A stretch of DNA of 64,000 nucleotides from Pristionchus mayeri (taxonomy: Eukaryota > Nematoda > Chromadorea > Rhabditida > Neodiplogasteridae): NCBI GenBank assembly GCA_036245805.1, contig BTRK01000002.1, positions 16,733,067-16,797,066 on the forward strand, given 5' to 3'. A program made the translations under genes and the position numbers. The notes beneath the pieces are model-generated. The model worked only from the letters and a program-made list of their open reading frames with translations. It was not told where the DNA came from and did no database searches. Every line of letters starts with the position of its first letter. Position 1 is the stretch's first letter. This document shows, in pieces, positions 16,223-61,373 of the stretch.

Positions 16223-17170
16223 CTACAACTCGTCGAGTGTCTCCCTCCTCTCTTCCTCCTCTTCCACTCCATTCTCGCCGTACCACAAATGGAAGATTGC
16301 GAGTTGTCGATCCGCCTGAAATGAATCAGATCTAGAAATGAAATTGAGCGTTGGGCTCATTGAACAAACGTTTCTATTTACGTTAGGTGCTTCAAATAAG
16401 TCCAAGAAAAATGCTCGTGGACTATATTTACTTACTACTTCCTGCTTAATCTGCTGCTTGGTCAGCTTTCGCCGTTGAAAATCACTTTTCCTCTTCGCGA
16501 TTACTTTGAGTGCTGATTGGACACCCAATTTGTGCAGAATGAGACCGGTAGGCTGTAATGATTCGTGTTTCTTCGCCTGAGAATGAGGTGTACGCTCTCA
16601 ATGAACTGCTTCTCCTCATCAGTCAAGCCTTCGAACTCCTCGTTGCAAATCCTTCTCAACTCTTTCAATTTGCCCCACAACACTCGATAGTTGGAGGGAA
16701 ATCCTGTTAGAACCTGCAATAATCTGTCCAATTCTATAGTTAATGGGCTTGATATTTAAAAAGTGACTGCGAATATGAAACGGGCTTATCTAGCCTAAGA
16801 AAATGTTAGTAATTCTTTCGAATTGCGTAAGTGACCTCGTCTTGGACTTCTGGTTTTTCTGCCAGAAATCCCATAAATTCCTTCTTGAATGTGATCAGCT
16901 CCTCTTCAGAGGAAGTGCTTAATGAGGGATAGGAGTCACATAATTCGTTGATTCCGAGGTCAATAACTGCAAAGATAGATTGTGCCTCTCACAATGCAAT
17001 CTCTATCTGGAAAGGTAGCCTATTCCGAAGGTCAGTGAAAGTGAAAACGAACGTTCATAGGGGCTGGTGAACTCGTAGGGATCCACAAGTGACTGATACT
17101 CATTGCTCTCTTCGATTATATTGCATCGCACCATTGATAGGATGAGGAATAGCGGCAAAAGAAGCAACAT
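16223..17170 (-). CDS. Array member A: secreted five-exon protein, tail LDEL
   Basis: First copy of the family that fills the next 45 kb; I do not recognise the family. Exons are about 17170-17057, 16967-16838, 16712-16593, 16555-16437 and 16313-16223. The start follows AATTCAG directly, as expected for a trans-splice acceptor. Residues 1-18 (MLLLLPLFLILSMVRCN) are a clear signal peptide. Exon 2 has INELCDSYPSL and TFKKEF, exon 3 LTGFPSNYRVL, exon 4 KLTKQQIKQE, exon 5 a W plus a run of Glu ending ETLDEL. The last four residues resemble a KDEL-type ER retrieval signal, though Leu at the first position is unusual. It is the most diverged in exon 5 (no WHKDDP). No break is seen, so it may be functional. 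Confidence 0.7.
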
Positions 17171-17664
17171 CTGAATTAGAATTTTGAGAATGTAAAAATT
17201 TATGCGTCACTATAGGCAAACATGTACTTATCAACTTACATTATCTTTCCAGAACTGTCACAAAATGAACACGCGAAAATAAATATCGAGGAAATTCAGA
17301 ATAGAGCAATTCAGTAAAGGGGAGTGACGAGAACGGAAGAAGGGAGTGAACAGAGAAAGGTCGTGCATCCAATAGAGGCGAGTACTCTCACTTTCCATTG
17401 AAGTTAGTTCAAAATATGTCCTTGTTGATAATGAAAGGATCTAGCTCCATTCAGTAAAATTGATGTGACAATGATATTCAGAAATTATTAAAATATTTTC
17501 CAAAACCGTGTTAAAAACAGTAATATGTTGTTGGAGGTTGTCTTTTGGGAAACCTACAATACAAGACCATGCTTCAAATACACTTTATCACACGTCCAGA
17601 TGCACGTAAAAGGAACTAGTGAGAATACAGTCCAACTCTGAGGGACTCGTTACTCTAGGGTAGG

Positions 17665-20947: not shown

Positions 20948-21887
20948 TCAAAGCTCATTTGTCGATCTCAGGGAAGCCCTGAGGCCATCGACGAGTTCAT
21001 TGTTCGGGTCGTCCTTGTGGAAGAGCTCCATCAGTCTCTTGAGATTGGCGACCTGTGAAGAATTTTTTCGTCAATTCTCAAGTTGCAGCACAATTCAAGT
21101 AAAATCGGAGAGCGGAAAGGTGAATTTTCCCGAGAGGAAATGTAAAAAGAGCTGAATTATGGACGATGGCCTGCATGGGCTGGGCAAGAGCACTTACGAC
21201 ATCACTTCTGATCTCCTTCTTGTTCATTCCCTCATACTTCCTCTTCTTCTCCTTCAGCAAATCCATCACGGGTTTCATGCACAACTGGTAGATGAGGAAT
21301 TTGTGCCCCTGAGGAAACACTGATCAGAAATTGCGAGGTTAGTCAACGAACATCCTCTTTCACTTCCGGTACATCGCGTCTGTTGATCTCCTTGAGCTTC
21401 GTGATAACTCCCGGAAGGATCTTGTACGATGAAGGGGATCCCTCAAGAACCTGCAAATAGCAAAAATACTGAATTCAGACTATCATACAAGTCAGCTATA
21501 GAAAAACAACACAATTATATATTTTTGTGAACATTTTTGTGAACAGATAATGCATCGATCATGACGTCCATCTAATTACTTACTTTATCCCGCGCATCTT
21601 CTTCAGACGCGGCGAAGTAGATCATCTCTCGTTTCAGGAGAATCTTCTCGTCTTTGTTGGCAGGACAAAGATCGTCATACTCTTTGCACAAGTCATCCGC
21701 AATTCGATTTGCCACTTAAAAGTTGTTCAAGTGACATAATTGCCGTATTTTCTAGATAATGCAGCTTACTTTCATATGCGGTAGAATGCTCTAAGAGCTT
21801 GCGTAAATCATCCTTCGTTGGAGGATCGAAGGAGACATTGGCGAGGATCAGGGAAGGAACAAGGAGGAGAGGCCAGATGAGACGCAT
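20948..21887 (-). CDS. Array member B: secreted protein, tail TNEL
   Basis: Exons about 21887-21772, 21716-21584, 21451-21355, 21308-21197 and 21052-20948. ATG follows TTTGTAG directly. The signal peptide is MRLIWPLLLVPSLILANV. Exon 2 has LCKEYDDLCPAN and LLKREMIYF, exon 3 EGSPSSYKILP, exon 4 EGMNKKEIRSDVV, exon 5 LFHKDDPNN ending ASLRSTNEL. All frames are open and junctions are in phase as far as read. The C-terminal NEL is close to the ER retrieval consensus. It is closest to member E by its FDPPTKDDLRK / RPTKGDMKK exon-1 segment. Confidence 0.7.
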
Positions 21888-23765: not shown

Positions 23766-23916
23766 TAATTGTGCAACATCATATTCAGTCCGAGAATCAT
23801 AGAGTTTGTTACTCACACACATTGTAGGTAGTAAGATCGAGTATTTCACTTTCAGACAGCTCCCACAGTTCGTAGTGCTTGTCCTCCTACAATGCATCTC
23901 CATGAAAATGTTACAT

Positions 23917-24610
23917 TTCTCCAACATCCAATGTACTTCCGAATTTGTTTCTCTGTCAGTCCTCTTTCCAGATACATTACAGTCTTTCGGTAATGCAGAT
24001 CGACTAGGAACCCGTAGATGTGAGAAAGGATGAAGTGGTCCTCCTGAAATCATAAATTTATTTTCGTTCGACCTTGGAAACTTACATCCTCATACTCGTA
24101 AGTTCGCATAGCCATCTCGCGTTCCGCAATCTTTCTCAATCGTCCGATTGTATGAGAAAGGTTCTTCAGCTTGTTTGGAGACTTGCCAGTGAACACCTAA
24201 AATTTTTAAGCTCAATATCAAAATGCTAACACTTTTCAAGTGGCATTATCCAATTACTTGCATAATCAAAGTAGACTAGTTTAAGTTATTACATGTGTTC
24301 GCTTCAGCTCTTCGAACTCCTCAAGGAACTCATCAACGATCGTGTCGATCCCTTAAATGGCGTGATTAACATTTCTACAATTTGAATTTTGAGAAAAACA
24401 ATTTCAAATATCTATTTTCACGTTCTGTAACAAAAAGTTGTAAAATAATGTGGAGTAACATTTATCCAAAAAGATGCAAACAAGAAAATGAAGAAGAGAC
24501 TTACAATCGAGCACATCGCTCTTTGCTCTCCAATACTTTCTTCGTTCTTTGAAGTCGAGATTCCACGCGAAGGTCATGAAGATAAGAATACGCCTAGAAT
24601 CGAAGCATGC
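23917..24610 (-). pseudogene. Array member C, incomplete copy
   Basis: Pieces of four exons remain. Exon 1 is near 24600-24515 (AWNLDFKERRKYW, related to the AWEY start of members F and G) without a good hydrophobic leader. Exon 2 near 24353-24295 (IDTIVDEFLEEFEELKR) is cut short before the LKRE block. Exon 3 is at about 24199-24088 (FTGKSPNKLKNLSHTIGRLR) and exon 4 at about 24044-23930 (LERGLTEKQIRKYI). No exon 5 is visible before the Tc1-type palindrome. Truncated exon 2 plus missing exon 5 make this a probable pseudogene. Its closest relative is member D. Confidence 0.55.
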
Positions 24611-24838: not shown

Positions 24839-24839
24839 T

Positions 24840-25820: not shown

Positions 25821-25823
25821 TAT

Positions 25824-26783
25824 CTAGTGATGAGCCACAATGTGCAGCTGGAGTTTCTTCGGCATCTTCTCCGGTGTCTCCTTTTTCTTTACGTCTCGAT
25901 GCCATCTCTTCCACAGCTCGCCCTTCTTCTTTTCCTCAAAAAATTCATTCAAATAGATTATTGTTTTATAAACTAACAATTTCGTCCACGATCTGCTGTG
26001 CTGTCAATCCCCTCTCCAGGTACTCCTCCACCTTCCTGGCCTGGAGTCGGAATAGGATGCCGTAGGCAAACGACTTGATGAAATGCTTCGCCTGAATTTA
26101 CAAATGACTATTACCCTTTTCGTTCTGAAACTCACACTCTCAAATTCTCCCACTTCTCCCTTCGCCATCTCTCTTTTCGCAATTTTCTTCATATCCCGCA
26201 TCTTTCCGAGAAGAATTTTGAACTTGGCAGAAGCCCATGCCTGTAGTGGGTAATATTACACCAGATTATTTCGTCTCAATCAATTACTCGGTCTTCATCT
26301 ACATAGTCAGCCATGCTGTAGTAGTCGAGTAGGTCTCGTTTGAGTTCGATCACTTCCTCCTCCCTTCGAGGTTTCAACTCTGGGAATTCCTCCAGAAATC
26401 CATCGACGATCGCCTCGATCCCTGCGAAACTCCACTGGTTCCGCGTCAAAGGACGTATTCGCAGAAATAAATGTTGTACTTTTCCACGAAATCGCGCTTC
26501 GGTCACAGAGCGTGTGAAAATATGCAAGAGTTAGCCCTCGGCTTTTCCCACTCGAAACTTTTTTGTGACGCCCTTCCGGCGCCAAACTTTCTCTTAGCTG
26601 CACTGTCAAAATGGAAAATTATTTCAAAAATTCCAAAATTTGGACATGTAAACTCAGACAGCAGAACAGCTCACATTCCAGTTGACTTGAGACGGCGAGC
26701 AGTTTCCTCACTTGGGGATCTTCTTCGAGGAAATTGGGCGCAGCCACTGAGAGAAGAACGATGCAGCAAAACTTCCCGAGCAT
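25824..26783 (-). CDS. Array member D: secreted protein without EL tail
   Basis: Exons about 26783-26675, 26420-26285, 26240-26135, 26092-25976 and 25940-25824. The leader MLGKFCCIVLLSVAAP is a plausible short signal peptide, preceded by CGCAG two bases from the ATG. Exon 2 has IVDGFLEEFPELKPRREEE and LKRDLLDYY, exon 3 KMRDMKKIAKREMAKG, exon 4 LERGLTAQQIVDEIV. Exon 5 is Lys-rich (WKRWHRDVKKKETPEKM) and ends HIVAHH, so the usual acidic WHKDDP block and C-terminal EL are both absent. With C it forms a diverged subgroup that also lacks the exon-2 Cys. Confidence 0.6.
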
Positions 26784-26969: not shown

Positions 26970-28080
26970 ATGGAGATGCATTTGATAGAGAGGGCTTTAT
27001 GAAGGAATGGGCGGAGTTTGCAAGTGGGAATTTTTAGCCAGGAGACACTTCTCTAACGCTGGCTCTGACGCTGAACCTACGTTTGAAACGAGGCATGGAA
27101 AGACCATGGCGTTACTCTAACGACCAGGATGAAATAGCATCAAACGAGGGTTAACGAAACATGTGTGTACGTGGTTTCGTTAGCCATATTTGCGAGTTGT
27201 TGTTAAAGCTCTTAGTGGTTCCGCATTCCGCCCCCGGAGAAAAGTGCACAAATTATAGAGAGCAGTCCTCTCGATTCTCTGACTAGTCCATAACTAGAAA
27301 ACTCGTGGACAGAGGAAGTGCACTTGTTGGTAATGAGTGAATTCTCAGAATTGGGAGGAGCAGTTATTACTAACGCTTATTGGGACAGGTATACAATTTT
27401 CGAGCAAGTAAGCATTCTCATGTTAATGTGCAAATTAGATGTTGCGAAACCCGAGAGCAAAAGGCAAAGAACACTCTCCCGTACGGGGAAAAAGTATGTA
27501 TGCGTCTTGAAAGGGAACGTGAGATAGTGGAAGAAGGGTGAAGAGGACTTCCGGCGAAGAAAAAAAGTAGAGCGCACTAAAATATCTGCATCCAGGGATT
27601 TGCAATTTTGAGATTAGAAAGTAAGGATGAGGTGTAAGCTCCTTAATAAGCAGGATTAGAAGTGTCAACACATTTTCCTCCCTTTGCAAGACAAGAATAG
27701 CGAAAATTCATCGGATTTGGCTTGCATTTCCTGCACACTTCAGCTTGCAGAGAGCATAAATGTGAACTTTACGTGCAATATTTGTGGTAACGAGGAGCTG
27801 CAAAAGCATCTAATTTGGAAAAGTTGTAGATTAGTTTAGAGCTGATTTTCAGGGGTTTATTTCAGGGGTTGCTCAATTGAAAAAAAGCAATGCGTAATCA
27901 GAGCTTTAGAGAACATATTCTATTTTCCACTACCAATCTCGTCAGGATGGCAGTGAATGGAATGATGATTGACTTAGCGTCAGGAGTCGTTTACAAATCA
28001 CAAATTAGGAGTTGAAGGGAAAGATCTGGTCTGAGATAGGAAAAGTATTTTTATCTTTACCGCATTTAAAAACAAGTTAT
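26970..28080. other. Intergenic, no supported gene
   Basis: No exon with convincing features on either strand. Small open frames of 66-84 codons around 27318-27689 overlap one another on both strands. Confidence 0.4.
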
Positions 28081-28102
28081 CAACAAAACAAGTAAAACAA
28101 TT

Positions 28103-28971
28103 TCAAAGTTCCGTCTTGGGGCGTTTTTTTCAATCCGAGTTTATCGATCAGCTCTGGATATTCTGGGTCGTCTTTATGAAAGATATCCATAAATATTTTC
28201 TGAGTCGCTCTCTGTAAAGTTTATACAAATGGCAAAATATGCCTGTGTGTATTACAGACCCAGCAGATCGATATTATTAAAATGAAGAGATTTTATTAAT
28301 GACATAAAACGAACTTTGTTAGCTCTGATCTCATCCGCGCTCATTCCTGTGAATTTCTTCTTCTTTTCTCTAGTGAGGGAAATCACTGGTTGTAGGCACA
28401 GATAATTCATGAAACTTCTTTTCTGAACAATAAATGCAATTTATGGGTCTCGAAGAACCATTTATATACGATGGTTAGATAGATTTCATGCATTTTTACT
28501 TTTCTTATCTTTCCGTACTTACACTTTTGATATATTTCCGATGACTTACTAATTGCCTGCAACCTCAGAATTGACTGAGGCAGAATCTTGAACTTGGAGA
28601 GAAAACCAGCAAGAATCTGAAAGTATAATCAAGAGATTCTTTACAATTAAATTTAGAAAATTTTTTTTGTTAAAATACCTCATTCTGTTCTTTTTTCTCA
28701 AGGATTAAGAAATAGATGAGTTCCCGCTTCAGGAGCAATTTATCCTCATCAGTGTGGGGGCAGGCTTCCGGAAAGTGTCCGCACAAATCCTCTACGGTTC
28801 TCTCCATAACTGAAATATTTCTAGGCTTTGAAGAAATTCTAACTGTAATTCACCTTCATATGGAGATGAATACACGAACATCTTCTTCATATCCCCCTTC
28901 GTCGGCCGATTGAAGGGGAAAATAGCAGAAGTTATGGAAGATATACAAATTATTACTCCGAGAAGACGCAT
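28103..28971 (-). CDS. Array member E: secreted protein, KTEL tail out of frame by one base
   Basis: Exons about 28971-28853, 28808-28680, 28619-28555, 28424-28320 and 28214-28103. The signal peptide is MRLLGVIICISSITSAIF. Exon 2 has VEDLCGHFPEACPHTDED and LLKREL, exon 3 LAGFLSKFKILPQS, exon 4 FTGMSADEIRANK, exon 5 FHKDDPEYPEL. As written, the frame ends in an unlike tail (GTLKLFYLFC) after a T7 run on the plus strand at about 28124-28130. With one base fewer in that run the next frame gives a tail ending KTEL and TGA at 28103, exactly like its relatives. This may be a homopolymer error rather than a true mutation. Confidence 0.6.
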
Positions 28972-29273: not shown

Positions 29274-30446
29274 TCAAAGCTCGTGTTTCTTTCGAATTTC
29301 ATCTCGCGCTTTATCGTCCAATTTCCCATCAAAGTCTTCTTTGTACAAATAATCGATGACAAGCGTCTGCGTGTCGAACTGAAACAGAATTTTCTTGCAC
29401 TCACACTCTCATACAGGAATTGATAAAGAATGGCGAACTCACAACATCCTTCTCGATTTCGTCCTTTGTCAAGCCGTAATTTTTGTACATCTTTCTTTTC
29501 CTAACCATGTAACCCATCATTGGGAAATACAACATTTGTTTGAAGATGAGATCGTCTACCTGAAAATTATCAATTGAAATTTCAACATGAATAAACCCTC
29601 ACATCCTCGTATTCCTTCTTCTGCAATTCAGTCATCGTCGAGTAAATCTTTCTCCCGAGTGTCTTTGCCTTCTTTAAGACGATTGGAAATATTTGTACTT
29701 GGTAGGAAAGCCAGCGAGTACCTTAAAGTTAGGAGCTGATTTCAATAAAATTAATCGCGAACTAGTCCATATCTACAAAATTTTACTATAATTGTGCAGA
29801 GAAATCAAGCGCACTTCTGCACCGAACAGTCGATCCTTATTCGGCATGAAGTCGATGATCTCCTTCTTGAGTGCTTTCATCTCATCCTCACTGTCAATTC
29901 AATTCAATTCAATTCAATTATTTATTCCGTTCATGTGGGAATATTCAAGATATCATTGTGGAATGGTGTCGAAAAACAGAGGTCCGTCGATGTGGTCGAA
30001 TCGGGTTTGCTTGCAGCAAGGGTATAGAAGGGAAGGGGTGGGTTCTCATTGATGTAGCCAATTATGGATAACGGATTTGGGAAATGATAGAGGGGGCTGT
30101 GAGGAGATGAGAGAACGGAAGGAATTATGTGGGAGAACAACAAAATCTGTGGTAAGAGAATTCCAAAAGGAAATCCAAAAGGAACTGTCAAGACACAACT
30201 CAGGAAATGTCTCGCACAACTCGTCCACGAGGGTGTCGTACACTGAATATATTTGAATCTTATTCTTCAAGTGATCGTTCTAGAGCAATATTGCTCAGCT
30301 GTTAGCATTGAATATGAATTATGATGCTTACATTCGTGGGAAGAAGTCACTTCTAAGAGCATCTTCTTGTCCTTCATTCCCTGTTCGATGTTGTATTCCC
30401 AAGCGACCGAGCAAGATGCGAAATATAATAAATAGATGAAAAACAT
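29274..30446 (-). pseudogene. Array member F, broken by an insertion and a frameshift, tail KHEL
   Basis: The leader MFFIYLLYFASCSVAWEYN (30446-30332) is intact. Exon 2 starts VYDTLVDELCETFPELCLD and is then interrupted by a 294-bp insertion; its remainder (SEDEMKALKKEIIDF) resumes at about 29890. Exon 3 (29718-29605) has AGFPTKYKY and then loses frame by one base, meeting TAA before the rest, which continues as KKAKTLGRKIYSTM in another frame. Exon 4 (NYGLTKDEIEKDV) and exon 5 (DYLYKED, ending RKKHEL) are intact. Two independent lesions make it a pseudogene. Nearest relative is member G. Confidence 0.75.
29890..30191 (-). mobile_element. Retroposon-like insertion in exon 2 of member F
   Basis: The insert has ACTGTCAA at both edges (29890-29897 and 30184-30191), a likely target-site duplication, and its minus-strand 3' end is ATAAATAATTGAATTGAATT, a simple (AATTG)n tail. 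Removing one duplication and the insert restores the coding frame of exon 2. It could be a SINE or the 5'-truncated 3' end of a LINE; no diagnostic promoter box was recognised. Confidence 0.7.
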
Positions 30447-30922: not shown

Positions 30923-31771
30923 TTATACTTCATCATGCCAGTCCAATTCGTGCTTCTTTCGAATCTCTTCCTTCGCATCTTCGTCTAATTCCTCATCTTG
31001 ATGCAGGTAATCGATGATCGCCATTTGAACTTCCAACTTGAATTTGTTTTAATTTATTACCGTTCTTTGGTTGGATAAACTCACCACATCCTTCATCCTC
31101 ACTCAGTCCATGATCTGCGTAATATTTCTTCTTCAGCTGCGCATGTCTCCGCATCGGCCAGTACAGCATTTGCTTGAAGAGGAAATCGTCCACCTGAATT
31201 ACAAACTCTCCCCCACTAAGCATCTCTAGCAACCCACATCTTCGAACCTCTCTCGTTGCAAATCAGTGAGCGTGGAGAAGATCTTCCTACCGAGTGTCTT
31301 AGCCTTCTTCAACGCGAGAGGCAGGTATTTGTACTTGGTGGGAAATCCGGCGAGTACCTAAAAAAATTGATTGTGTAATAGTAATTTCTTCTATCGACTT
31401 GCATCTGCTCTCAGGGAGGGATCGGTGTTCTTGGAGTGCTCGACCATCTCCCTCTTCAGTCCCCTCATCTCCTCTTCCGTGTCCAGACACAGTTCAGGGA
31501 AAGTCTCGCACATGTCGTCCACTATCGCATCCACCACTGAAGACAATGTTTTGCTTGTTTTTGTTAAGAAAATAGGAGAAAATAATAGAAATGTATGGTT
31601 TCAACAACAACAAAACAACTATTTTTAGCATTAGCTGAGAAGTACAAACTCACACTCGTGCGTAGTGGTAACCTCGTACATCTTCTTCAATCGTTCCCGG
31701 GCCTTCTCGAAGCTACCATATTCCCAAGCTTGTGAGTGAGCAACAAATAAGAGCAAATAAGGAAGAATCAT
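30923..31771 (-). pseudogene. Array member G, probable pseudogene (8-base deletion)
   Basis: Exon 1 (31771-31653) has leader MILPYLLLFVAHSQAWEYG after TTTCAG. Exon 2 reads VVDAIVDDMCETFPELCLDT and LKREMVEH, exon 3 AGFPTKYKYLPLALKKAKTL, exon 5 DYLHQDEEL and EEIRKKHELDWHDEV. Compared with member F, exon 4 lacks the eight bases that encode most of EIEK, so its donor is in the wrong phase for exon 5. The C-terminus also extends five residues past the KHEL found in F, burying that motif. An alternative donor could rescue the frame, so the pseudogene call is moderate. Confidence 0.6.
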
Positions 31772-32425: not shown

Positions 32426-32546
32426 ATTCATAGTCGAAAAAGCTGAGGAGTCACTCTCTTCATTCCCCGAACTCTCTCGACCGGTCGACCGGTGAGAGAG
32501 TTCGGGAAATGAAGAGAGTGATCCCTCAGCTTTTTTGACTATGAAT
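32426..32546. repeat. 121-bp near-perfect hairpin
   Basis: ATTCATAGTC plus AAAAAGCTGAGG at the left is complementary to the right end, and the arms meet at a central ACCGGTCGACCGGT palindrome. It is probably a small MITE; no coding capacity. Confidence 0.8.
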
Positions 32547-32632
32547 GGGCCATAAATGATAAAAATTTATCTAAACGAACGTACCAAATCGCTCTTTGAT
32601 GAGATTTTTTCAAAAAAGGATAAAACATTTTG

Positions 32633-32704
32633 TGCCTCATGCTGGAATCGAACCAGCGACCTTCTGTTTACTAGACAGACGCTCTGCCACTGAGCCAATG
32701 AGGC
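32633..32704 (-). tRNA. tRNA-Thr, anticodon AGU
   Basis: On the minus strand the 72-base sequence folds as a complete cloverleaf without intron. The acceptor stem GCCTCAT pairs with ATGAGGC followed by discriminator A; the D stem is GCTC/GAGC; the anticodon stem TCTGT/ACAGA carries loop CTAGTAA (anticodon AGT, reading ACU threonine codons after inosine modification); the T arm is GCTGG TTCGATT CCAGC. A-box and B-box consensus are present inside. It lies between array members G and H. Confidence 0.95.
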
Positions 32705-46618: not shown

Positions 46619-46784
46619 CTGAGAGATTTGAAGAGTAGAATAATCTGCATAGTATTATATGAATATCAGAGCAAATATAGTTGATGGTTGTAAAACCAAT
46701 CAGCCGGCAACAAATATCACAAGTATGGAATGTAATGTCTTTATCGAAATACTAAATTCTGAGATGTATTTCGATAAAGTTCTG

Positions 46785-49694
46785 GGTTCTCAAGTGTGTG
46801 GCGAGCGGTCGAGTGCGATTTCGTCTCCCCGTCTCCGGTTCCGCCCGCCCAGAGTCCCTCTCCCAGAAGCGTTTGGCACGCGGGAGTTGTACGCCACTAC
46901 GATGGTTCGCCGCTTCTACATCGGCACCATCAACGCCAGGACGCTCGGTCCAAGGGAGAAGCAGACGGAGATGGAGCTCGCCCTCGACAAGATCAAGTGG
47001 GACGTGATTGCAGTGCAGGAAGCAAGGATTGTGGGTTGTGCCTCGTTCAATCTTACATCCTCAGGCACTGTAGTCTACCACTCGGGCGGGCCCACTGCTT
47101 CCCATGGCGTCGCATTCTTGCTTCGACCGCACCTTGCGCGCGGAGCGGTGTTCAATGGCCTCTCCCCTCGTCTGGCCACTCTCCTCCTCCCCGATCTACG
47201 GCTCTTCCTGGTCTGCGCGTATGCTCCCACGTCTTCCTACGATGACAACGCTTACGATGACTTCCTAGACCAGGTTGAGACTGCTCTGCAGAGTGCGCCC
47301 AGAGGCCTTATGCCAGTTCTAGTCGGTGATTTCAACTGTAGAGTAGCGAGGGAACCTGGCAATGAAAGATTTGTCGGTAACTTCGCCTCTCCCACACCGA
47401 ACTCACGCGGACGCTGTTTCACTGAGCTCTGCGTGAGGAATAGACTGCGCATCCAGAACACGTTCCCCAAGAGACGGCACGGTCGAATCTGGACATGGCG
47501 ATCCCCCAACGGCTCCTCATTCCACCAAATTGACTACGTTGCAGCGCCCACCACAGCGAGAGTAGTCAATTGCGGAGTCATTGGCCGGTTTGAGTTTGAC
47601 TCCGACCATCGCCTTGTCCGGATGTGCCTCTCCCTCCCTGGCAAGATGAGGCAGAAAAGATGCAGGGAGCGGTTAGATTTCGATCGATCTGCTTTTACTG
47701 CCAACGCATCCCTTCTCGCGTCACTGCCCCTTGCCCGCCCCAGTTCTGCTGCCGATGCCTACTCTACGGTCAAGGCTTTCACGGAGACCGCGGCAATGAA
47801 CTGTTGGAGGAAGCGCCAATCCCCGCCTTGGATCTCGAGTGGAACACGGAAGCTCCTAGCGATGCGGCATCAATTGCAATCCAATCCCCCAAGGAACTGT
47901 CGCCTACTCAGTTGCCTGCAAAGCTGCCCGGACGAGTCTCGTCGATGACATCAGGAAGCGAAAGGAGGCACAAGCACGGCAAGCAGCAACCATGGGAAGG
48001 AGCATCGTGAAGAGCATGCTGAATCTGCACACCTCAAAGAAGCGCCTCCTCGTCCCCGACCCTGTCACTGGTGCTCTCTCTCAAGCAGCCACCGAGACAG
48101 CTGTCCAGCTCTTCTTCGAGGATCTCTACACCCCTGCAGTTCAGGTCCCACTCACAATCCCCCCTCATCCACCCGATCCTCTTCCGCCCTTCCTACCCGA
48201 TGAGGTCAGCGAAGCGATGTCTCTACTCAAGTGTGGTCACTCCCCCGGGTCGGATGGCATTCTCCCTGATATGCTATTCCACTCGCGACACCACCTCGCC
48301 CCCATCATCGCTGATCTCCTCAACTATCTGGTAGAAGGTGAAGCCGTCCCACGCGATTTGACCGAAGCAGTGGTTACTCTTCTGCACAAGAAAGGAGATC
48401 CCACCAACGTCGGAAATTTCCGCCCAATCTCCTTGCTCACCGTAACCCTGAAAACCATGACCAAGGTGATTCTGAAAAGACTCGAGGCAGTGCTCGAAGA
48501 GACTGAGTCGTCAACCCAAACCGGTTTCCGGAGCGGGTATAGCACCCTCGACAACCTGCATTCCATCAATCAGGTCGCAGAAAGAACCTCGGAATACGGT
48601 ATCCCGGTCTATTTCGCATTCGTCGACTTCAAGAAAGCATTCGATTGCGTGGAATGGAGTGCATGTTGGCAAGCCCTCTACTCGTTCGGAGCCCATCCTA
48701 CCCTCGTCCACCTGCTGCGCCGCATCTACGAGTCTTCCTCTACACTCATCAGAGTAAACGAGGAACTCGTACCAGTCACTGTGCGAAGAGGAGTCAGGCA
48801 AGGGGATACCCTCTCCCCTCGTCTCTTCAATGCAGTGCTTCGCTCAGCCATGAATGACATCGACTGGGAGAACGACGGGATTCGAATTGATGGCAGGAAT
48901 TTTTGCCACTTGGAATATGCCGATGACGTAGCCCTTGTTGCGAAGTCTCACCCGGAAATGGAGAGAATGCTGAAAAAGCTGATGGACGCTTGCAGTAGAG
49001 TTGGTCTCGAGATGAATTCAAATAAGACCAACCTACTCACTTCCTGTACAACAACCCGAAATCCAATCATTATCAACAATCTACAGTTCGATTTCGTTGA
49101 ATCAGCCACCTATCTCGGAGGGAAGATCAGTCTCCCACTTGATCACTCTGACGAGATCGAACACAGGATTCGACTAGGGTGGTTCGCCTGGAGCAAGCTC
49201 TCCCATCTGCTGTCCTCCCGCCTTCTACCCATCAAGACCAGGAGAAGAGTCTTCGAGAGCTGCGTGACGGCTACCGTACTCTACGGAAGCGAAGTTTGGG
49301 CGCTGAGGGCGAGTGAGAAAGAGCGGCTCAGTGTTACCCAAAGAAAGATGGAGAGGAAGATGTTGGGAGTCACGCTGAAAGATCGCTGGAGGAATGAACG
49401 CGTGCGCGGGATCACGAAGCTGAGGGATTGGATCGAGGAAGGACTGAAAAGGAAAGCGCGCTGGGCCCTCAAGGTCAGGAGAATGGGACTAGAGCAGTGG
49501 AGCCGTGCCACTACGGTGTGGACGCCATACAATAGGAAGCGCCCCCCCCTGGGAAGCCTCATGTACGATGGAGAGATGATTTGACCCGAGCTATTGGCAA
49601 ACACTGGTGGAATGCAACTTATGAAGAGTACCTCCCCATCCTCATCTGAGCACCTATTGCCTTACATGATAAATTGATTGATTGATTGATTGAG
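46785..49694 (+). mobile_element. RTE-like non-LTR retrotransposon (LINE)
   Basis: A GC-richer block in AT-rich surroundings, encoding an apurinic-type endonuclease followed by a reverse transcriptase and ending in GATAAATTGATTGATTGATT, a (TTGA)n tail as in RTE-type elements. The 5' limit is approximate and set by the change in composition. It lies between array members O and P on the strand opposite to them. No clear target duplication was found. Near full length with few lesions implies a young insertion. Confidence 0.85.
46902..49650 (+). pseudogene. LINE endonuclease-reverse transcriptase, two frameshifts
   Basis: The single polyprotein would nick target DNA and copy its RNA there. From ATG 46902: RRFYIGTINARTL, VQEARIVG, LVGDFNCRV and FDSDHRLVRM are endonuclease motifs; FRPISLL, FVDFKKAFDCVEW, GVRQGDTLSP and LEYADDVALVA are reverse transcriptase motifs; RMERRMLG-like RKMERKMLGVTLKDRW and KARWALKVRRMG match the RTE C-terminal region. 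The frame changes twice. Near 47910-47925 one extra base moves the endonuclease frame to the next, where AARTSLVDDIRKRKEAQARQ precedes the RT. At the C8 run 49542-49549 one base is missing; in the restored reading register the tail continues as VRWRDDLTRAIGKHWW to TGA near 49650. Both could be assembly errors. Confidence 0.85.
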
Positions 49695-49720: not shown

Positions 49721-50714
49721 TCACTGTCGTATTCTCTCTTTCCCTATCTCAATATTCTCCCTCTCCGATTCAGGGTCATACCACTTGTCCATCAGCTCCA
49801 TAAGGACTTTTCCCTGTAAGCACTGATTTTAGGTCCAAATTCGCATAGGAAACGACTTTTTGAACTCACTTGATCTTTCCATATCTCCTCCTTCGTCAAT
49901 CCACTCTCTAAATATGCGTCCCTTTTCGCCTCGAGATGATCAATAACCAATGGGAAGGTCATTTTGAAGAATGCATACATATCCAACTGAAATGTTTATG
50001 GTTTTGAACGAAGTATCACATTTTCCATGGTCTCCTTATACAAAGACTCAACACAGAAAAGGTGCAGTAAACACTTACCTCGTGGTTTTTCATCTTCTCT
50101 TCCTCGCTGGTTAATGGTTTTATCTCTCTGCCGATCTTCATGAACCACTTAAGTGCCTTGGGGAGATACTTGAAATCAGAAGGACCTCCGGCGATTATCT
50201 TCAATTCAAAAATCTATGCCAAAGTTGTGAAAAATGTTATAACTCAAAGCAGAGTTCACTATTAATTTTGAAATCTAACGAAATATCATATTGTGAGAAC
50301 TTCAACATTAATTATTATTGAACTGTCATTTCATCGTGATTTTTGAAATACTCATTGAATCGTTACCTTTAACTTCTCATCGTTAGGAATGGACTGCAAG
50401 CCAATGACCTCCCTCTTCATTGCAATCAATTCATCCTCTGTTCCAGGATGCATCATGGGATACAAATCGCACAAATCGTCGACGATAACGTCGATCACTG
50501 CAATAGACTACTTCACATTTTCGAGATGTATTCTTTCGAACAACTTTCCATGAATTTTAAGCTTAGTTCTCTGATGAAGAATGAGCTTACCCTCTTCCAT
50601 CGGTGAATAATCCTTCATCATCTGCACTGCTTCATCTGTCCGATCGAATTCGATGTATCGATTCATTTCTGAATCCGCAGTGGAGAGAAAGACGAATGGC
50701 AAGAAATAGCGCAT
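49721..50714 (-). CDS. Array member P: tail removed by a stop codon
   Basis: Exons about 50714-50592, 50499-50368, 50201-50080, 49987-49870 and 49813-49721. The leader MRYFLPFVFLSTADSEMNRY follows CGTCAG directly. Exon 2 has VDDLCDLYPMMHPGTEDEL and AMKREVIGLQSIPNDEKLKV, exon 3 AGGPSDFKYLPKALKWFMK, exon 4 ESGLTKEEIWKDQV, exon 5 MDKWYDPESEREN and KERIRQ followed by TGA. Three more codons in frame (YDL, then TGA at 49709) match the KYEL/HYEL tail of its relatives, so the protein has lost only its last three or four residues. The rest is open and may be expressed as an untethered secreted form. Confidence 0.7.
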
Positions 50715-50822: not shown

Positions 50823-52143
50823 TTAGCGAACACAGGAGATAATATTCATTGCATCGATCTTAATGAAGCCCGTACAATAATTAATACCATCAAAAAGTTT
50901 TAGAGGTAGATAAAAACGTGTACTTAAATACATCTTCCTATTTCGGAACTCCTTCTCCTTCATTTCGTATTTTTCTTCGAGCCACATTTCATGAAGTATC
51001 AGAGGATCTTCCACGTCATGTCCCTGGTCCTCCCAGTCGAAACGATTGCTCGTTTTCTTCTGAAAATTTTTTTGTATTGATTATAAATTGTTTTATCGTA
51101 AAGAAGTTTATGCATAAAGAGTCCATATTGATAGCAACTTTTGGAACTTCTTCAGTTTCTGCCACCCCTCTTTTTGTGGCTACCCCTTCAATGATGGGCG
51201 AAGAAATGAGAGAGGGATGGATTGCCCAACGTTCCATGGACTTCTGAGAAAGCTCATAAATTTGACATACGATCTCCTTCTTTATTTGCTCCTTCGTCAG
51301 TCCTCGACTCTCGTAGCTGGCCATCTTCTTCTCGAGAATTTCGGTAACATACGCGGACAATTTGAACATCGCATATCCCTCAGCCTGGAATTGACAGGCA
51401 TTATAAAGCTGAAATGAAGAATATCGATGAATATGCTTACGTCTTTCATGATCCTTTTCTTATTCTCAGTCAGTTTTCTAAATTCTCGTTCTGCGATCTT
51501 CCATCCGGAGACAATAAATTCTTTGAAGAGACTGAATTTATCTTGAAAACGGGCCACAACCTGAAGAAAAGTTCCCATTCCCGCTGTGTAATATTCAATA
51601 GTTTCAGAATACGGCCGGGTTATTTGGCTACCACTCTTTCCACTTTTGAAGTTCCTTGTGATATGAAGAACTAATGACTAATTAATCGACTAAAAACGAA
51701 CCTCTTCAAAATCCTTGGCATCGGTGGTTAGCCAGTAAACTAGCTGCAGCTTCAACAGGTAGGTTTGTTCGACGATGGGTTCGAATTTCTCTTCCGGAGG
51801 TCCTTCTAGCTCTTCCAATTCTTCCATTAGCTTTCGGAACTTTTCGCTCTCCACTGGCTCCGGACGCAACTCTGGAAACTCCGTGCACAGCTCTTCGAAG
51901 ATCGTCTCGACCACTGAAATGTCAATTTCACATTCAGTGTCCCGGACTATTGAAGCATAAAAATAAGACATTAGGCGGAATAATTTCATCGGCTTTTCAT
52001 AAGCAAGAAGTTGAAAAAGTCGCACATTCATGGGGCGATACGTACTCCAGAATCCTCTCCAGATCGTGCGCTTTCACGATATCAGAGGCGTGAGATGCTA
52101 AAACAACATTGAGCAACGCCAGGAGTATCCATATTCAAAGGAT
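50823..52143 (-). pseudogene. Array member Q (EYVSPHE subgroup), start codon lost
   Basis: Aligned base for base with member T, exon 1 has ATC in place of ATG (52141-52143) and TGA in place of CGA two codons later, then continues in frame as a leader (ILLALLNVVLASHASDIV) and HDLERILEYVSPHE. No other in-frame Met precedes the leader. Exon 2 (51912-51702) is the long subgroup form: FEELCTEFPELRPEP, then a Glu-rich insert and YLLKLQLVYWLTTDAKDF. Exon 3 reads RFQDKFSLFKEFI, exon 4 SRGLTKEQIKKEIV. Exon 5 (51062-50823) starts WEDQGHDVEDPLILHEMWLE but its C-terminus has run on into unlike sequence without the EL tail. Confidence 0.7.
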
Positions 52144-52485: not shown

Positions 52486-53627
52486 CTATTGCTCACGTAT
52501 CCGCTTCTTCCCTACCTCGACGCTTTCCGCCTCCGGGTCATATTCGTGCCATTTATCAATGAGCTCCAGGGTACTTTTTCCCTGGAACATTCACTTTATA
52601 AGCACGGAGAAGTATTGAGCTCACTAGATCTCTTCTGATTTGTTCTTTCGTCAATTCACTCTCCACATAGGCGTCCCTTTTCGCAAGGAGATGATCGAGT
52701 AAAAAGGGGAAGCTCATTTTGTAGAATGCATACTTATCTAACTGCAATTCGATCTTTTTTTCGTAATATTGATCATGGATTCGTTACCACCACCCAAAAA
52801 ATGTACATTATTTCATTAAAAAACGTACATAATCATTTTTAAACTTTTCTTCCTCCTTGTTCAGTGGTTTCATCTTTCTTCCTATTTTTAAAATCTCAAA
52901 AATCGCATCGGAGAGAAAATTGAAATTGGGCAATTTGCCGCCTTCAGCGGAAACCTTGATCACCTGAAGTGAACAGTGTGAGACAACAATTTCTAATAAC
53001 AGAGAGTTTAGTGCATACTTTGAGAAACACTTAGCCATTTCAGTAAAAGAGTGCTACACAAGTGTATGGCACTAGGTCGGATGAGAACTAAGACGTCATG
53101 TTTTGACAGATCAGTGTTCAAGAATAAAGTAGCGTTCTCACCTCTTCCCTCTCATGCTCGGGTAGCGTGAAAAAGTATACGAGCTCCCTCTTCAGTAAAT
53201 TTATCTCCGGGACGTAATCAGGTAGCACATACCAGTAATAGTAACACAGGTCGTCCACGACGCTGTCTATCGCTGAAAGGGAGCTTCTAACAAGAATTTC
53301 CATTTCAAATTTTGATCCTTTGACTAAGACGTGTCTTCAATATTTGTTGATTCTACGATAATAATGTACACCAGAAGAAAGGTACACGAAAATATAGATG
53401 TCGCTAATCAAAATCTATGTTCTGCGATTAAGATAGTTATTAATGACTATCTAAGAGAGTCTCATAAGATTCGCATACTAATGAGCTATCGATGAGTACT
53501 AACCAGCGTGGAAATGTGAATAATTGGCCATCAGCTGCTTCGCTTCATCAATCCTTTCGAATGCGATTTCGCGATTAACCTCTCGAGCAGAAGCCGAAAG
53601 AGCGAAGAGTGGTAGGAGACTTCGCAT
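52486..53627 (-). CDS. Array member R: tail removed by a stop codon
   Basis: Exons about 53627-53506, 53273-53140, 52964-52829, 52742-52626 and 52582-52486. The leader MRSLLPLFALSASAREVNRE follows TATCAG directly. Exon 2 is diverged (VDDLCYYYWYVLPDYVPE, no HPG) but keeps LLKRELVYFFTLPEHEREEV. Exon 3 begins with extra residues (VSAEGGKLPNFNFLSDAI), exon 4 ESELTKEQIRRDLV, exon 5 IDKWHEYDPEAES and KKRIREQ followed by TAG, then in-frame GAA CTC TGA. Thus a TAT/TAC to TAG change deletes YEL, the same part that member P has lost by a different mutation. Confidence 0.65.
53069..53100. repeat. Single arm of the 43791-43878 hairpin family
   Basis: CACTAGGTCGGATGAGAACT followed by AAGACGTCATG matches the right arm of the hairpin upstream of member M, here without its partner arm. 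It lies in an intron of member R. Confidence 0.6.
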
Positions 53628-53639
53628 CTGATATGTATA

Positions 53640-54380: not shown

Positions 54381-54389
54381 AGCCCTATC

Positions 54390-55328
54390 CTACAGCTCTT
54401 CTCGGTGCTGACTGCTCGCATCTTCTGTATTCTCCGTCGACAACCGTGCAATTTGATCCTCCGTCTTCCTTCTCTTAATTTCCCTCTTATACTTCAAGTA
54501 CTTGCTGTGTCTTCTATCTTCAAAGTATTCCTCCAGCTTCCGAAGCTTCTCTTGCAGCCAAGTGTTGTGCAGGACACCAGGATCAGCCACATCCCAGTAC
54601 GAGCGCCGCCAGCGTTTCTGGTACTGACGAAGAGCCTTCTCCTGCACAAACAACGAACAAATTAACGTTTTTCCCCAGTTCTATTCCATTTTGGATAACA
54701 AGTTTTGACCATTCTAAATGAATTTCTTGCAAACCGTATTCGTTTCCAATGCCCACATCGGTTGCATTCCATTATGAGTGAATGGTTTTGACTGCGAATG
54801 AACTTCACCTACAATCTCCTTCTTGATCTGTTCCTGGGTCAGTCCTTGAATTTCGTATCTGGCCATATTCTTCTCGAGAAGTGCAGTAGCACAGGCGGAC
54901 AATTTGAACATCGCATATCCTTCTGCCTGGAATGGGTAGGCGTCTTAATGTTAAAGTGAAATTAAGAGACCGGCTGGGTAAGAATCGAGGGTCTCTTTGT
55001 TTCTCTCTTCACAAGATTCGTGTCTTCATCGTCAAATGGATCCACCAAAATGTCGTGGTACTTTCCCATGTCGTCCACAACACTGTCGATTACTGTAAAA
55101 TTATTAATATTGGAAAATGTGTGATAAAATCAATGCTCAATTAAAAAAATTTAAAAAAATTAATCAATGCTCAATATGCTCAATTAACATTTAAAGAGAC
55201 TTGCCCTCGTGAATATTGGAATATTCAGCCATCAGCTCCATTGCTTCATCAAATCGGTCGAGGAAGATGTGTCGGTTCATGGCGAGAGATGTTGTTGAGA
55301 GAAAAATGAGTGACAAGATACATCTTAT
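54390..55328 (-). pseudogene. Array member S: chimeric copy, start lost, tail REEL
   Basis: Exon 1 (55328-55203) is of the P/R type: after TCTCCAG the first codon is ATA instead of ATG, then RCILSLIFLSTTSLAMNRHI and DRFDEAMELMAEYSNIHEG. Exon 2 (55094 to about 55000) is a degraded P/R-type piece, VVDDMGKYHDILVDPF. No exon 3 was found. Exons 4 (54928-54810, GYAMFKLSACATALLEKN, IQGLTQEQIKKEIV) and 5 (54643-54390) are of the Q/T type, the last with a long charged helix (LEEYFEDRRHSKYLKYKREI) ending SSQHREEL. This is a recombinant between two subgroups. Confidence 0.7.
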
Positions 55329-55532: not shown

Positions 55533-57004
55533 CTACAACTCTGCTCTCTTTTCTGTCTCTTCATCCCCTGAATTCTGAATCTTCGCTCGTTCTCGTCGAT
55601 CTTCATCGAGTCTTCGCTGGATATCCTCCATGTACCTCTCCTCTCTAATCGACCTTTCCAGTTTCAACTCCCTCTGCTGCATCTGCCAAATCTCGGATTC
55701 CCACATTCTGTGCAGCACATCGGGATCTTCATTGTCCAAATACGAGTCCTGCCATTGCTTCTCGTACTTCCGACGCGTTTTCATCTGTGCAGGACACGAA
55801 TAGTTGAGTTCGTGCATAATCAACGCTTACGATATCCTTCTTAATTTTCTCCGTGGTCAGCCCTCAATTTTCGTAGCTGGCGATTTTCTTCTCGAGAAGT
55901 TCGTTCACAATCGCGAATATTTTCTCCTTTGCATATCCCTTTCTCTGCAGAGGCTACGTATTGATTCATTAATAAAGCATGAGGTTACATTTTTCATTTC
56001 CTTCCTCTTCTCCTCACTCAGTTCCTTAAACTCTCGAAGTGCGATCTCCTCACCAGTCTCGACGAACTCGTGGAAGAGACTGAACTTGTCGTAGTAGCTG
56101 GCTTCCACCTGCAATGTGATCAATGAGTTGGCATGGTATGGTGCGATATTCTCCTTTCTAGGGTACGGTATCTTGATAGTACACAGTAATATTACGATAT
56201 AGATTATATGAACGTTTAGACAGAGAAAAATTGAGAATGGTTCTCGGAATGCCAAACTTTTCTGCGTATGCTCTGGTTACTTGCTCCCTCTCTTTCCCTC
56301 TTCCTTACCCTTATATTCTAATGATCTCGCGTTGATTTTCAACTTCAATTTCCATAATATCTAAGGGTAGTTCATAGAAATCGGATATGCCCATATGCAT
56401 AAGAGCCAACCTGCTCGAATTCCTCTGTATCGGTGGTGAGCCAGTAAACCAGCTGCAGCTTCAGGAGAAATACTTGTTCCACGGGAGGAGGTCGCTTCTT
56501 CGCCTCGGGAAACATCTCCATCATCTCTAGGAGCATCGCGCTCTCCTTTGGTTCTGGGACCAGCTCGGGATAGTCGGTGAACAGTTCTTGAACAACCGTG
56601 TCCACCACTGAAATGAATTTGCTTGTTTCTTGACGAAAACAACTGCTTCTTCACTCGGACTTTGGTCTATATTTGCATAGCTCTATGAAGAGCAACAGGT
56701 AGGATGATATGCTTCCGAATGATAACCAATCTCCAATAGTTTCACAGTGGGCTTTCCGTAAGTGTGAGAGTCTACTGTGATATCCGGAATGTTATGATCC
56801 GAAGGTGATAACATACAGCCCTATGAACATGTTTTTAGAAAGGTCATCTTACTCGAAAGATGGTAATCATAATGCGGCATACTCACATTCATGGGGCGAT
56901 ACGTACTCCAGAATCCTCTTCAGATCACGCGACTTCACGATTTCAGAGGCTAGCGAAGCTGAAGCAGTGTTGAAGAGAGCGAAGAGTAAAGATATTCGTA
57001 GCAT
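55533..57004 (-). pseudogene. Array member T (EYVSPHE subgroup), stop in exon 4, tail RAEL
   Basis: Exons about 57004-56886, 56608-56412, 56109-55992, 55950-55830 and 55783-55533. The leader MLRISLLFALFNTASASLA follows CTTCAG by two bases. Exon 2 is the long form (VQELFTDYPELVPEPKE, YLL-like VFLLKLQLVYWLTTDTEEF), exon 3 ASYYDKFSLFHEFVETGEEI. Exon 4 reads NELLEKKIASYEN, then TGA, then GLTTEKIKKDI; Q has Arg (CGA-type) at that site. Exon 5 is a charged coiled segment (QRELKLERSIREERYMEDIQ) ending EETEKRAEL. One substitution separates it from an open frame, so it is a young pseudogene or a selenocysteine/readthrough curiosity (unlikely). Confidence 0.65.
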
Positions 57005-57701: not shown

Positions 57702-58489
57702 CTATAGATCGGCTCTGGATCGTTTGCTGTCTTCGTAGACATATTTCCAGGCCTCAGGGTCGTCGTAGTGCCACAAGTCCACCAGTGCTTTCGCCTTCTG
57801 CTTCTGAAAGCAAATCATGTGCAAATTCTTCAACGGTTGCTAACAATCTCCATCTTTATCTGTCTTTCACTCAATCCTCGTTCCTCATAGCTCGCCATCT
57901 TCCTCTCAAGCAGCTCCATCACTGGGTAATGAACGTGGAAGTTGAGATATCGATCTGCCTGGAATCATCCACTTATTGTGAAGTGGAAAGGCAACTCACG
58001 TCGACAACGACTTTCTTCGTCTCGTCGCTAAAGTCTTCGAATTCTTTCTCGGCGAGATCTCTCAATTGCGCTATATTGGCAGGGATGGTCGTGTGTTTGG
58101 ATGAGAAGGTGCACGATATATTGCAAGGAGTGCCAGCAATGATCTGGGGGAATTTTACTTCTAGTTTGGATCAAAATTCTCGTACCTCATTCTGCACATC
58201 CACGGGAGAAATTAAAAAGTGTACGAACTCTCGCTTGAGAAGAACCATTTCCTCTCGTGTTGATGGCTCCAAATCAGGAAACTCCTTACACAGATAATCC
58301 ACGATTGTATCCGCAACTGAATATTCCGATTGCATTTAAAATTAGAACAGATAAGATGATAATCAGCTCACTTTCGAATAATGAAGTGTACTCCAAAATC
58401 TTATCTAATTCGTGATCTCTGACAAGATCCTGAGCGAAAGAAGCAAACGAAGCATTTATCAATGCAAAAATCAAAAATATCTGGCGCAT
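57702..58489 (-). CDS. Array member U: secreted protein, tail RADL
   Basis: Exons about 58489-58372, 58317-58185, 58143-58000, 57960-57850 and 57806-57702. The leader MRQIFLIFALINASFASFAQ is clear; unlike most copies no AG acceptor sits at the ATG, and an upstream in-frame ATG (58495) exists. Exon 2 has VDYLCKEFPDLEPSTREEM and LLKREFVHFLISPVDVQNEV, exon 3 AGTPCNISCTFSSKHT (longer, two extra Cys), exon 4 EERGLSERQIKMEIV, exon 5 VDLWHYDDPEAWKY ending SKRSRADL. All frames are open. It pairs with member V. Confidence 0.75.
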
Positions 58490-58874: not shown

Positions 58875-59859
58875 TCACAGTTCGTTTTTCAATTTTTTCT
58901 TCGCTTGGTAGAACTCTTCGTTTCTCATTCTCCTTCTCTCTTTGCCTATCTTGTCCTCCCTCCTTTCTTTGTTAACATCGGCAATCTTATGATCCGTTAG
59001 GTACAAGTATGCATATGGATCGTCGGCCGACCACAAATCGGTGAGTTCGTCCTGCTTCTTCTTCTGCAATAATCATCTAAAGCATAATTACAAAATCCGC
59101 TCACAATCTCCATTTCAATCTGCCGATCATTCAGTTCTCTTTCCTCGTAGCTTGTCATCTTCTTCTCAAGAAGCAGTGAGATTGGCCATTGGAGATGAAA
59201 GTTGAGCAAGCTATCCACCTGAAATTTCATCTCGATCACTTGTCTCGTTTCGTCATCTCACGTCTTTTATTGTTTCCTTCATCTCGTCGTTGTACGATTC
59301 GAATTTTCGGGAAGCAACTGCTTTCAGCTGCGCAATTTTCATGGAAATAGTAGGGAACATGGAAGTGAACTTGTTGGGAATCCCTGCGTACACCTGTGAT
59401 GATGTCTCAACATCATTTAACGTAGTAATAAGAGCAGTTTTAGTTCCTCAAACTGGAAAGTACAAAACAAACGAGTCATACGAGTCAGAGCCTTTATCCT
59501 ATTGTAGCATACCTCATCTTGAATGTCAGGATTCGTAGAAATGAGATGTCCGAATTCCCGTTTAATGATAATCATTTCTTCCTCTGACGGGGGAGCCACT
59601 TCCGGAAATTGCTCACACATGTACTCGACTATTGCATCGACAGCTAAGTGTTCGAGTTTCATTTTGCAAGACAGGTGGGGGGGGGGGGGGGGGGAGCGAA
59701 CCAACACAACACTGGAACAAGTGCTAGCTCACCTTCGAGTATTGATGCATACTTCTCCATTCCCCCTTCGTCATGATTTCTGACCAATTCTATTGCTAGA
59801 GGTCGCGGGTCAGCAAAAATACCATGCAAGAATATGAATGACAGCCATATCGGGAGCAT
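58875..59859 (-). CDS. Array member V: secreted protein, tail KNEL
   Basis: Exons about 59859-59735, 59645-59513, 59396-59260, 59220-59105 and 59065-58875. The leader is MLPIWLSFIFLHGIFADPRP. Exon 2 has VEYMCEQFPEVAPPSEEEM and IIKREFGHL, exon 3 AGIPNKFTSMFPTISMK, exon 4 EERELNDRQIEMEIV. Exon 5 starts LTDLWSADDPYAYLYL and then carries an extra charged stretch (NKERREDKIGKERRRMRNEE) before KKKLKNEL. The final KNEL fits the published ER-retention pattern [KRHQSA]-[DENQ]-E-L. A run of about 19 G at 59676-59694 lies in intron 1. No break was seen. Confidence 0.8.
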
Positions 59860-60238
59860 TCCCCGAAGGTGGTTTGCTGAGCCAAAAAGTAGACAAATAG
59901 TTTGAAGAAACAAGATAAATTAATCCGTTTACGGAAAGAACTAGTTTTACGTAGGTTTCAAAACAGTTATCACGAGCGTGCGCGATTGTTATTGAAAAGA
60001 GCGCACACTCGGCACACCGAGAGAATGAGGTTCGAGGGAGAGGGGCGAATGAACGGGTGGAGTGAATGATACTGCAGATGTGTAAAAAAGACTCGACGAG
60101 AAAATAGAGCCATCTTTATCTGACGACCAATGTGGCTATATTCGTTTCGTATATTCAGTATCAGCTCAGACATTCACAAGATGTAACAAGAACAGTAAAT
60201 GTTTAGTGACAACATTGTTCAGATAGTTCACATTCCCA

Positions 60239-61373
60239 TCACAGTTCTTGCTTCGCCGCGTACCATCTGTTGTGCAGCCGCATCACGTTTTCGGCCTGTA
60301 CAGCTTCGAGTAGTCACGACTCTGGATCTCCTTGTGAACAAGACTTTATAGACTCATTCTCTCCCAACATTCTTCCCTGCTTCTCGTTTGTAGTTTTACT
60401 ATTGTCTACACTTTTTCAGATTTGAAAAAAAGGTTCTCAACTGACGATCTCAGCCTGGATCTCCTTCTGACTCAGTCCCCTCCCATCGTATTCCGCCTTC
60501 TTCGACTGCACGAGAGACACCACTGGCTCGACGGCGATCAGATACTTCAGATACACCTCTTTCTGCAAGAAATCAAGCTCTTTTCACATTTTTCAAGTAG
60601 TCACAATCCGCTCATTGAGCAAAACAATAGAATAGTCCAATGATGTCACTACTGGGCTTCAAAAGAGATTCAGAAGACAATAAAGATTAAAGGTCAAGGA
60701 ACGCACGCTGACGAAGTACTCCTTGTCCTCATCGTCGAGGTCGTTGAACTGCTCCTCGATCAGGGGCTCAAGCTGCCGAAGTTTCGTGGGCAATACGGGG
60801 AAGCGAGGATGGGTGCCCGCGAAGGCCTAAAGATAAACATTTTTTCGCTTTTGAATGCAAACCATAGTACATTGTACGGAGTATAGAAAGAAGAATCTCA
60901 AACTTTGAATTGTAACCTTCCAACTAAGCAACAATAGACCACCGACTTTATCCATCTCCTCCGGAGTGAGAATGAAGTAATCAATGAGTTCTCTCTTGAA
61001 GGCAGTCAGATCATCTCTGTCGAAAATATCGGGATATTTCTGGCGAAATTCCTCGCCGATTATCTGTGAAACTGCAATGATTTGAGAGTGAGGGCGGGAG
61101 GGAAGAGAGGCGGAAGTGTACAACTGCACGTTACAACTGCTCATTTTAGAACTCATTGTTTTTTAAACTAATTGGTTACTTTGGAACGCTTTATTTTTCA
61201 CCCTATGTAGAGTTTTAAAATGACCAGTTCTAAATTGATGCAGTCCTAAGAGCGAAACCTTCATAGAGACTCGTGTACTTGGCCAATTCGGGCAGTTCTT
61301 CCTTGCTAACTCGCTGTTTAGCGCCCGTTGCGTTGTTGAGAGACAATAACAAAATAGTGAAGAACAACTTCAT
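60239..61373 (-). CDS. Array member W: secreted protein, tail KQEL
   Basis: Last copy of the array. Exons about 61373-61258, 61072-60945, 60827-60710, 60563-60445 and about 60294-60239. The leader MKLFFTILLLSLNNATGAKQ follows TTGCAG by one base. Exon 2 has IGEEFRQKYPDIFDRDD and FKRELIDYFILTPEEMDKV, exon 3 AGTHPRFPVLPTKLRQL, exon 4 YDGRGLSQKEIQAEIV. Exon 5 is short (AENVMRLHNRWYAAKQEL), keeping the Trp and the C-terminal KQEL, which fits the ER-retention pattern, while the WHKDDP block is gone. The exon-5 acceptor (GTACAG) was chosen because it gives this frame; the call for that exon is moderate. Confidence 0.7.

Follow-up and report, generated by a model that had tools for sequence, protein, structure and literature searches.

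A tandem array of five-exon genes in the nematode Pristionchus mayeri encodes leader-bearing proteins whose C-termini suggest KDEL-type retrieval to the endoplasmic reticulum

Introduction

Soluble proteins that are retrieved to the endoplasmic reticulum (ER) combine a leader with a KDEL-like C-terminal end. RAP (LRPAP1) and MESD, small ER proteins with KDEL-like tails, are escorts of LDL-receptor-family proteins, and MANF is characterized by eight conserved cysteines. The genus Pristionchus belongs to the diplogastrid nematodes; to our knowledge, other lineage-specific tandem families in nematodes encode either secreted or membrane proteins, and we know of no ER-tagged array.

Retrieval of the KDEL type is described as requiring a free carboxyl end with acidic residues at positions -2 and -3, whereas position -4 is the selective one, being K, R or H in mammals, with ADEL and DDEL in some yeasts (PMC8248988, in the excerpt available). 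Natural tails also depart from the classical form, as exemplified by KTEL in AGR2 (PMC12328878, excerpt). MANF and CDNF, which are small proteins with KDEL-like tails, end in RTDL and [Q/K]TEL, and their direct recognition by KDELR1 was judged unlikely (PMC4731063, excerpt).

Here we describe an array of genes in a 64-kb stretch of P. mayeri DNA (hereafter the window; contig C2, 16,733,067-16,797,066; genome 290.8 Mb). The proteins resemble the KDEL-type ER-lumenal class in their hydrophobic leader, in a C-terminal x-x-[E/D]-L and in the acidity of most measured copies, and differ from it in that most of their tails depart from K/H/R-D-E-L. On the evidence of the sequences, we think it fairly probable that the array holds a family that is restricted to a lineage, was expanded in tandem and encodes soluble proteins brought back to the ER by KDEL-type tails.

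Results

Iterated exon profiles were used to search the window, taken as 2,391 six-frame fragments. Significant exon matches occurred on the minus strand only, between about 16.4 and 61.1 kb, and the rows for the plus strand of the window had E values of 0.48 or worse. Combining the exon profiles with splice sites and reading frames, we modelled 23 copies of a five-exon gene (c01-c23), all on the minus strand, from the ATG of c01 at 61,373 to the stop codon of c23 at 16,223 (Table 1). The original prediction of about 23 tandem minus-strand copies sharing a five-exon plan was thereby borne out, down to its exact end points; the motifs that it quoted are consensus forms, with C..YPELHPG as an exact string being found four times. 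In the splice-aware models, intron 1 is in phase 1 and introns 2-4 are in phase 0. Fifteen of the 23 models have an uninterrupted ATG-to-stop five-exon frame, and in the remaining eight (c04, c05, c07, c12, c15, c17, c18 and c21) the frame is broken or incomplete. An AG lies 0-6 bases 5' of the start codon, or of its remnant, in 19 of the 22 copies with an exon 1, as would be expected of trans-splice acceptors. The insertion of ~300 bases that splits exon 2 of c18 has a terminal TTGAA-type repeat and, as judged by eye, appears to be flanked by a short direct repeat.

Table 1. Copies of the family and neighbouring features, in window positions
Feature	Position	Strand	Description
c01	60239..61373	-	five exons, intact, end KQEL; identical to deposited P0007
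c02	58875..59859	-	intact, end KNEL
c03	57702..58489	-	intact, end RADL; deposited P0003
c04	55533..57004	-	in-frame stop in exon 4, end RAEL
c05	54390..55328	-	start codon lost, without exon 3, end REEL
c06	52486..53627	-	intact; stop immediately ahead of EL; deposited P0008
c07	50823..52134	-	start codon lost, odd tail, exon 5 end uncertain, without motif
c08	49721..50714	-	intact; stop immediately ahead of YDL
c09	45587..46618	-	intact, end HYEL; deposited P0006
c10	44059..45049	-	open frame without hydrophobic leader, end KYGL; deposited P0004
c11	42543..43770	-	intact, end KYEL; deposited P0001
c12	41049..42289	-	in-frame stop in exon 2, end REDL
c13	39826..40739	-	intact, end REDF
c14	38367..39141	-	intact, end NEDL
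c15	37696..37989	-	exons 1-2 only; its exon 2 joined to c16 in P0002
c16	34289..35153	-	intact, end KYEL; deposited P0002
c17	30923..31771	-	frameshift in exon 4; tail continues beyond HEL
c18	29274..30446	-	exon 2 insertion and exon 3 frameshift; exon 5 end KHEL
c19	28080..28971	-	intact, without tail motif
c20	25824..26783	-	intact in model (weak exon 5 acceptor), without tail motif
c21	23809..24351	-	exon 1 not found, exon 2 short, without tail motif
c22	20948..21887	-	intact, end TNEL; deposited P0005
c23	16223..17170	-	intact, end LDEL
Non-LTR retrotransposon	46653..49581	+	between c08 and c09
MSP gene	32928..33701	+	three exons
mir-8364 match (both strands) and tRNA-Thr (agt)	32455..32517 and 32632..32704		within array
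Insertion in c18	29896..30183	-	splits exon 2
Mariner-type transposase frame	13844..14797	-	adjoins array end
BACK domain	11987..12268	+	flanks array

The exon joins of the models agree with eight deposited P. mayeri proteins (P0001-P0008). Besides P0007, P0001 comprises the entire c11 with seven extra N-terminal residues, P0004 is c10 minus its first three residues and P0003 is c03 with an extension at the front and without the final L. P0005 follows c22 and ends early within exon 5, P0008 contains exons 3-5 of c06 preceded by intron sequence, and P0006 and P0002 combine c09 and c16, respectively, with an exon of the upstream copy. The deposited array entries carry the name of the PPCAC pipeline, the input of which is given as open reading frames of assembled transcripts together with P. 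pacificus homology (PMC7992802, excerpt). The joins between neighbouring genes in P0002 and P0006 therefore probably reflect RNA. The exon 5 acceptor of c11 (window position 42647) reads TTAAG, not TTCAG, and P0001 uses the same site.

With 18 copies aligned, dN/dS (omega) was 0.17-0.33 in the ten closest pairs, which indicates that the exons code. The closest pair (c12/c13) has a dS of 0.65, and the pairwise medians, 26% for identity and 0.77 for pS, show the array to be old. Subgroups lying in blocks, which had been put down to local duplication, are thus real, yet old. In a tree of 19 rows, c12 groups with c13 and c04 with c07 (support 100/100 for both), c06 with c08-c11 (100/99), c02 with c03 (97/94) and c23 with a paralogue on contig C5 (92/92); this last grouping suggests that the family predates the array. 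The first and last exons of c05 belong to different subgroups.

Searching the genome with nine protein queries placed the family at no fewer than four loci, namely the array, C2:17.46 Mb (0.67 Mb from the array), C4:29.20 Mb and C5:18.97-18.99 Mb, a lower bound given that the search scores best candidates only. Exon profiles found no copies within 20 kb on either side of the window, and a weak candidate on C1 (E 0.109) was dropped since they matched nothing there. One C5 paralogue, an identical inverted pair that we counted once, ends in IDEL, and a second, with a frameshift in exon 3, ends in SDEL. The C2:17.46 Mb paralogue has KKEL only past an in-frame stop, and the C4 paralogue ends in INE and is without a leader. 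On C5, 18971573-18975320 and 18975772-18979519 (L010 and L011) form an inverted repeat of 3,748 bases that is 100% identical and contains a partial family copy; it either arose by duplication very recently or is an artefact of the assembly.

A hydrophobic N-terminal peak, as measured by hydropathy rather than by a dedicated signal-peptide predictor, is present in 21 of the 22 copies with an exon 1, the exception being c10. By the same measure, the family has the signal peptide expected of KDEL-type ER-lumenal proteins, c05 and c07 being without an ATG. The readable copies that are leaderless (c10 and the C4 paralogue) are also without the [E/D]L ending described below. After the leader, the proteins span roughly 155-215 residues. 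Among the 13 intact copies measured, a set that excludes c06 and c08, a basic pI (>8) was obtained for c10, c19 and c20, all of which are without the tail motif, and the acidic copies other than c13 carry it. Between zero and five cysteines follow residue 20 in 13 intact copies.

The original prediction had used REDL/NEDL as a subgroup label and overlooked the C-terminal ending: these strings are C-termini, and an [E/D]L ending spans most subgroups. Of the window copies, 22 have an exon 5, and 13 of these close with it (tails in Table 1); it is found in nine of the 15 intact copies and, when paralogues elsewhere are counted with the window, in 15 of the 26 tails. Four of the 13 motif-bearing window copies (c04, c05, c12 and c18) are damaged elsewhere. 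Near-misses account for five of the nine motif-less window copies: a stop precedes EL in c06 and YDL in c08, c10 and c13 end in GL and DF, and c17 runs on for six residues beyond HEL. The tails of c07, c19, c20 and c21 have nothing like the motif. For comparison, [E/D]L occurs at 12 of 1,507 ends of open reading frames of at least 40 codons outside the family, most of which are surely not genes, and none of the 1,507 fits the classical pattern. In 20,000 tail shuffles the maximum was five of 26 with [E/D]L, and at offsets 1-10 from the end it is found 0-2 times. Because the copies share descent and few of the ends used for comparison belong to genes, p-values overstate the independence of these counts.

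Among the 15 motif-bearing tails, ten have K, R or H at position -4 and six have D or E at -3, the two coinciding in only two (REEL and REDL); the classical pattern fits four of the 15. Taken together, the leader and the [E/D]L ending suggest ER retrieval of the KDEL type, against which count the small numbers of tails that are classical or suit both positions, the doubt over direct reading of RTDL and [Q/K]TEL by KDELR1 (PMC4731063), the 11 of 26 tails without the ending and the retention of REEL by c05 despite its lost start codon. The array could alternatively encode an ordinary lineage-specific secreted family, in which [E/D]L is inherited from a common ancestor or caps the last helix structurally instead of serving as a sorting signal. 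The copies are indeed homologous, six of the 15 intact ones are without the ending, most tails are non-canonical and the motif-bearing copies are scattered on the tree (six changes, with 375 of 500 shuffles as low), a distribution compatible with repeated loss and with weak constraint alike. However, the ending is kept while the preceding part of the exon varies greatly in length and sequence: exon 5 measures 18-83 residues, and its last two are nonetheless kept. The final L is present in 15 of 17 rows, compared with seven of 17 for the next most constant tail position (one residue); this set omits seven of 24 tails, all motif-less, and so flatters the comparison, for which reason we prefer the all-tail count of 15 in 26. 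In both AlphaFold models the final helix stops short of the last residues. We consider an ordinary secreted family unlikely, if not negligibly so.

The surroundings of the array bear on a further alternative, that the family acts in sperm or the male germline, whatever its biochemistry. A major sperm protein (MSP) gene lies within the array on the opposite strand, and its three exons form an open frame when followed by eye. For exon 2 the Pfam score exceeds the cut-off (PF00635, E 2.7e-9); taken alone, the frames holding exons 1 and 3 did not match MSP. Regions of P. pacificus and C. elegans that express MSPs are described as rich in recently duplicated families (PMC8480184, excerpt). A single neighbour is, however, no proof of shared expression, and we regard a role in sperm as unlikely too. 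The other neighbours are a non-LTR retrotransposon (endonuclease E 2.5e-8, reverse transcriptase E 3.5e-37), a mariner-type transposase frame (PF01359, E 3.2e-16), a BACK domain (E 2.4e-9) that probably belongs to a BTB-Kelch gene, and the mir-8364 and tRNA-Thr matches (Table 1).

We then turn to the identity of the family. Pfam searches with five proteins, 16 aligned members, three further proteins and two consensus sequences gave no convincing match; the best E value was 0.0022 (among the 16 aligned members), and all matches shown with a curated cut-off fell below it. Nothing convincing was found in NCBIfam, where the best match (E 0.0021) was an unrelated CRISPR family, or among PDB sequences (best E 0.015-0.24). 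No significant match thus appeared to the described domain families, a comparison that had been named in advance as able to refute the original prediction, and its statement that no named family has this plan holds: the family is unrecognized in the libraries searched. Nor did any known ER protein emerge from these searches as related in sequence. AlphaFold returned an all-helical model (pLDDT 80-82), for which no clear fold relative was found. Beyond the eight array proteins, protein homology searches matched P0009 alone, an unnamed frame of 97 residues from a public collection that matches exon 2 of c01 (E 9.6e-15); c01 accordingly has a relative in another sample, and we do not claim that the family is exclusive to P. 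mayeri. No description of the family was found in the published literature, as judged on titles and abstract openings.

The range of the tails, from REEL, KNEL and KQEL through KYEL and LDEL to REDF, would also suit factors resembling MANF and CDNF, part of which is retained and part secreted, with the tails setting the leakage, for example under ER stress. Partial secretion is reported for MANF and CDNF with their RTDL and [Q/K]TEL tails (PMC4731063, excerpt). The array proteins, however, have no Pfam match to the MANF/CDNF family and, with 0-5 cysteines in 13 intact copies, far fewer than the eight of MANF, making this explanation distinctly unlikely. Remote kinship with the fatty-acid and retinol binding (FAR) proteins, lipid carriers that are likewise small, helical, of nematodes and furnished with a leader, is improbable, as c23 is the only one of the 16 aligned members to match PF05823 (E 0.018 over 105 residues) and does so at 15.9 bits, short of the Pfam gathering cut-off of 29.2, whereas the other 15 had no match at E 1 and neither consensus sequence matched.

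Discussion

Local duplication, many copies and the lack of a Pfam homologue are features that the array shares with the lineage-specific tandem families of nematodes. The original prediction called the family secreted, and the leader does point to the secretory pathway; secretion itself is doubtful for many copies, given that [E/D]L tails point to ER retrieval, and most members are probably better labelled ER-retrieved. In such a scheme, the leader would send the proteins into the ER, and the x-x-[E/D]-L tails would allow their return from the Golgi by the KDEL receptor, so that most members would act in the ER lumen or the early secretory pathway, and those that have lost the tail would probably be secreted.

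As to the work performed there, the proteins might bind, hold or escort other fast-evolving secretory proteins, as chaperones or escorts dedicated to particular clients. This is a guess, and a doubtful one, for which RAP and MESD offer a likeness in mode of action only; the array proteins have no Pfam match to either. Judging from their sequences, some tails look like strong retrieval signals and others like weak ones. It is tempting to speculate that the array is a bank of client-specific ER escorts differing in binding surface and tail strength, which would place a graded retrieval series in one genome. With similar reserve, the gradation might run from the classical REEL, KNEL and KQEL through the weak KYEL, LDEL and REDL to the lost REDF, KYGL and truncated tails.

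Genes expanded in one lineage are commonly taken to encode proteins that are secreted or exposed at the surface and so face the world outside. If ER retrieval is correct for the array, as its C-termini suggest, a family of this kind can remain within the secretory pathway instead, and the leader by itself can be a misleading ground for labelling orphan families 'secreted'. With its graded retrieval-like signals, the array supplies paralogues in which to study, in an animal, how weak KDEL variants balance retention and secretion, and it raises the question of what client would make an ER protein increase in number.
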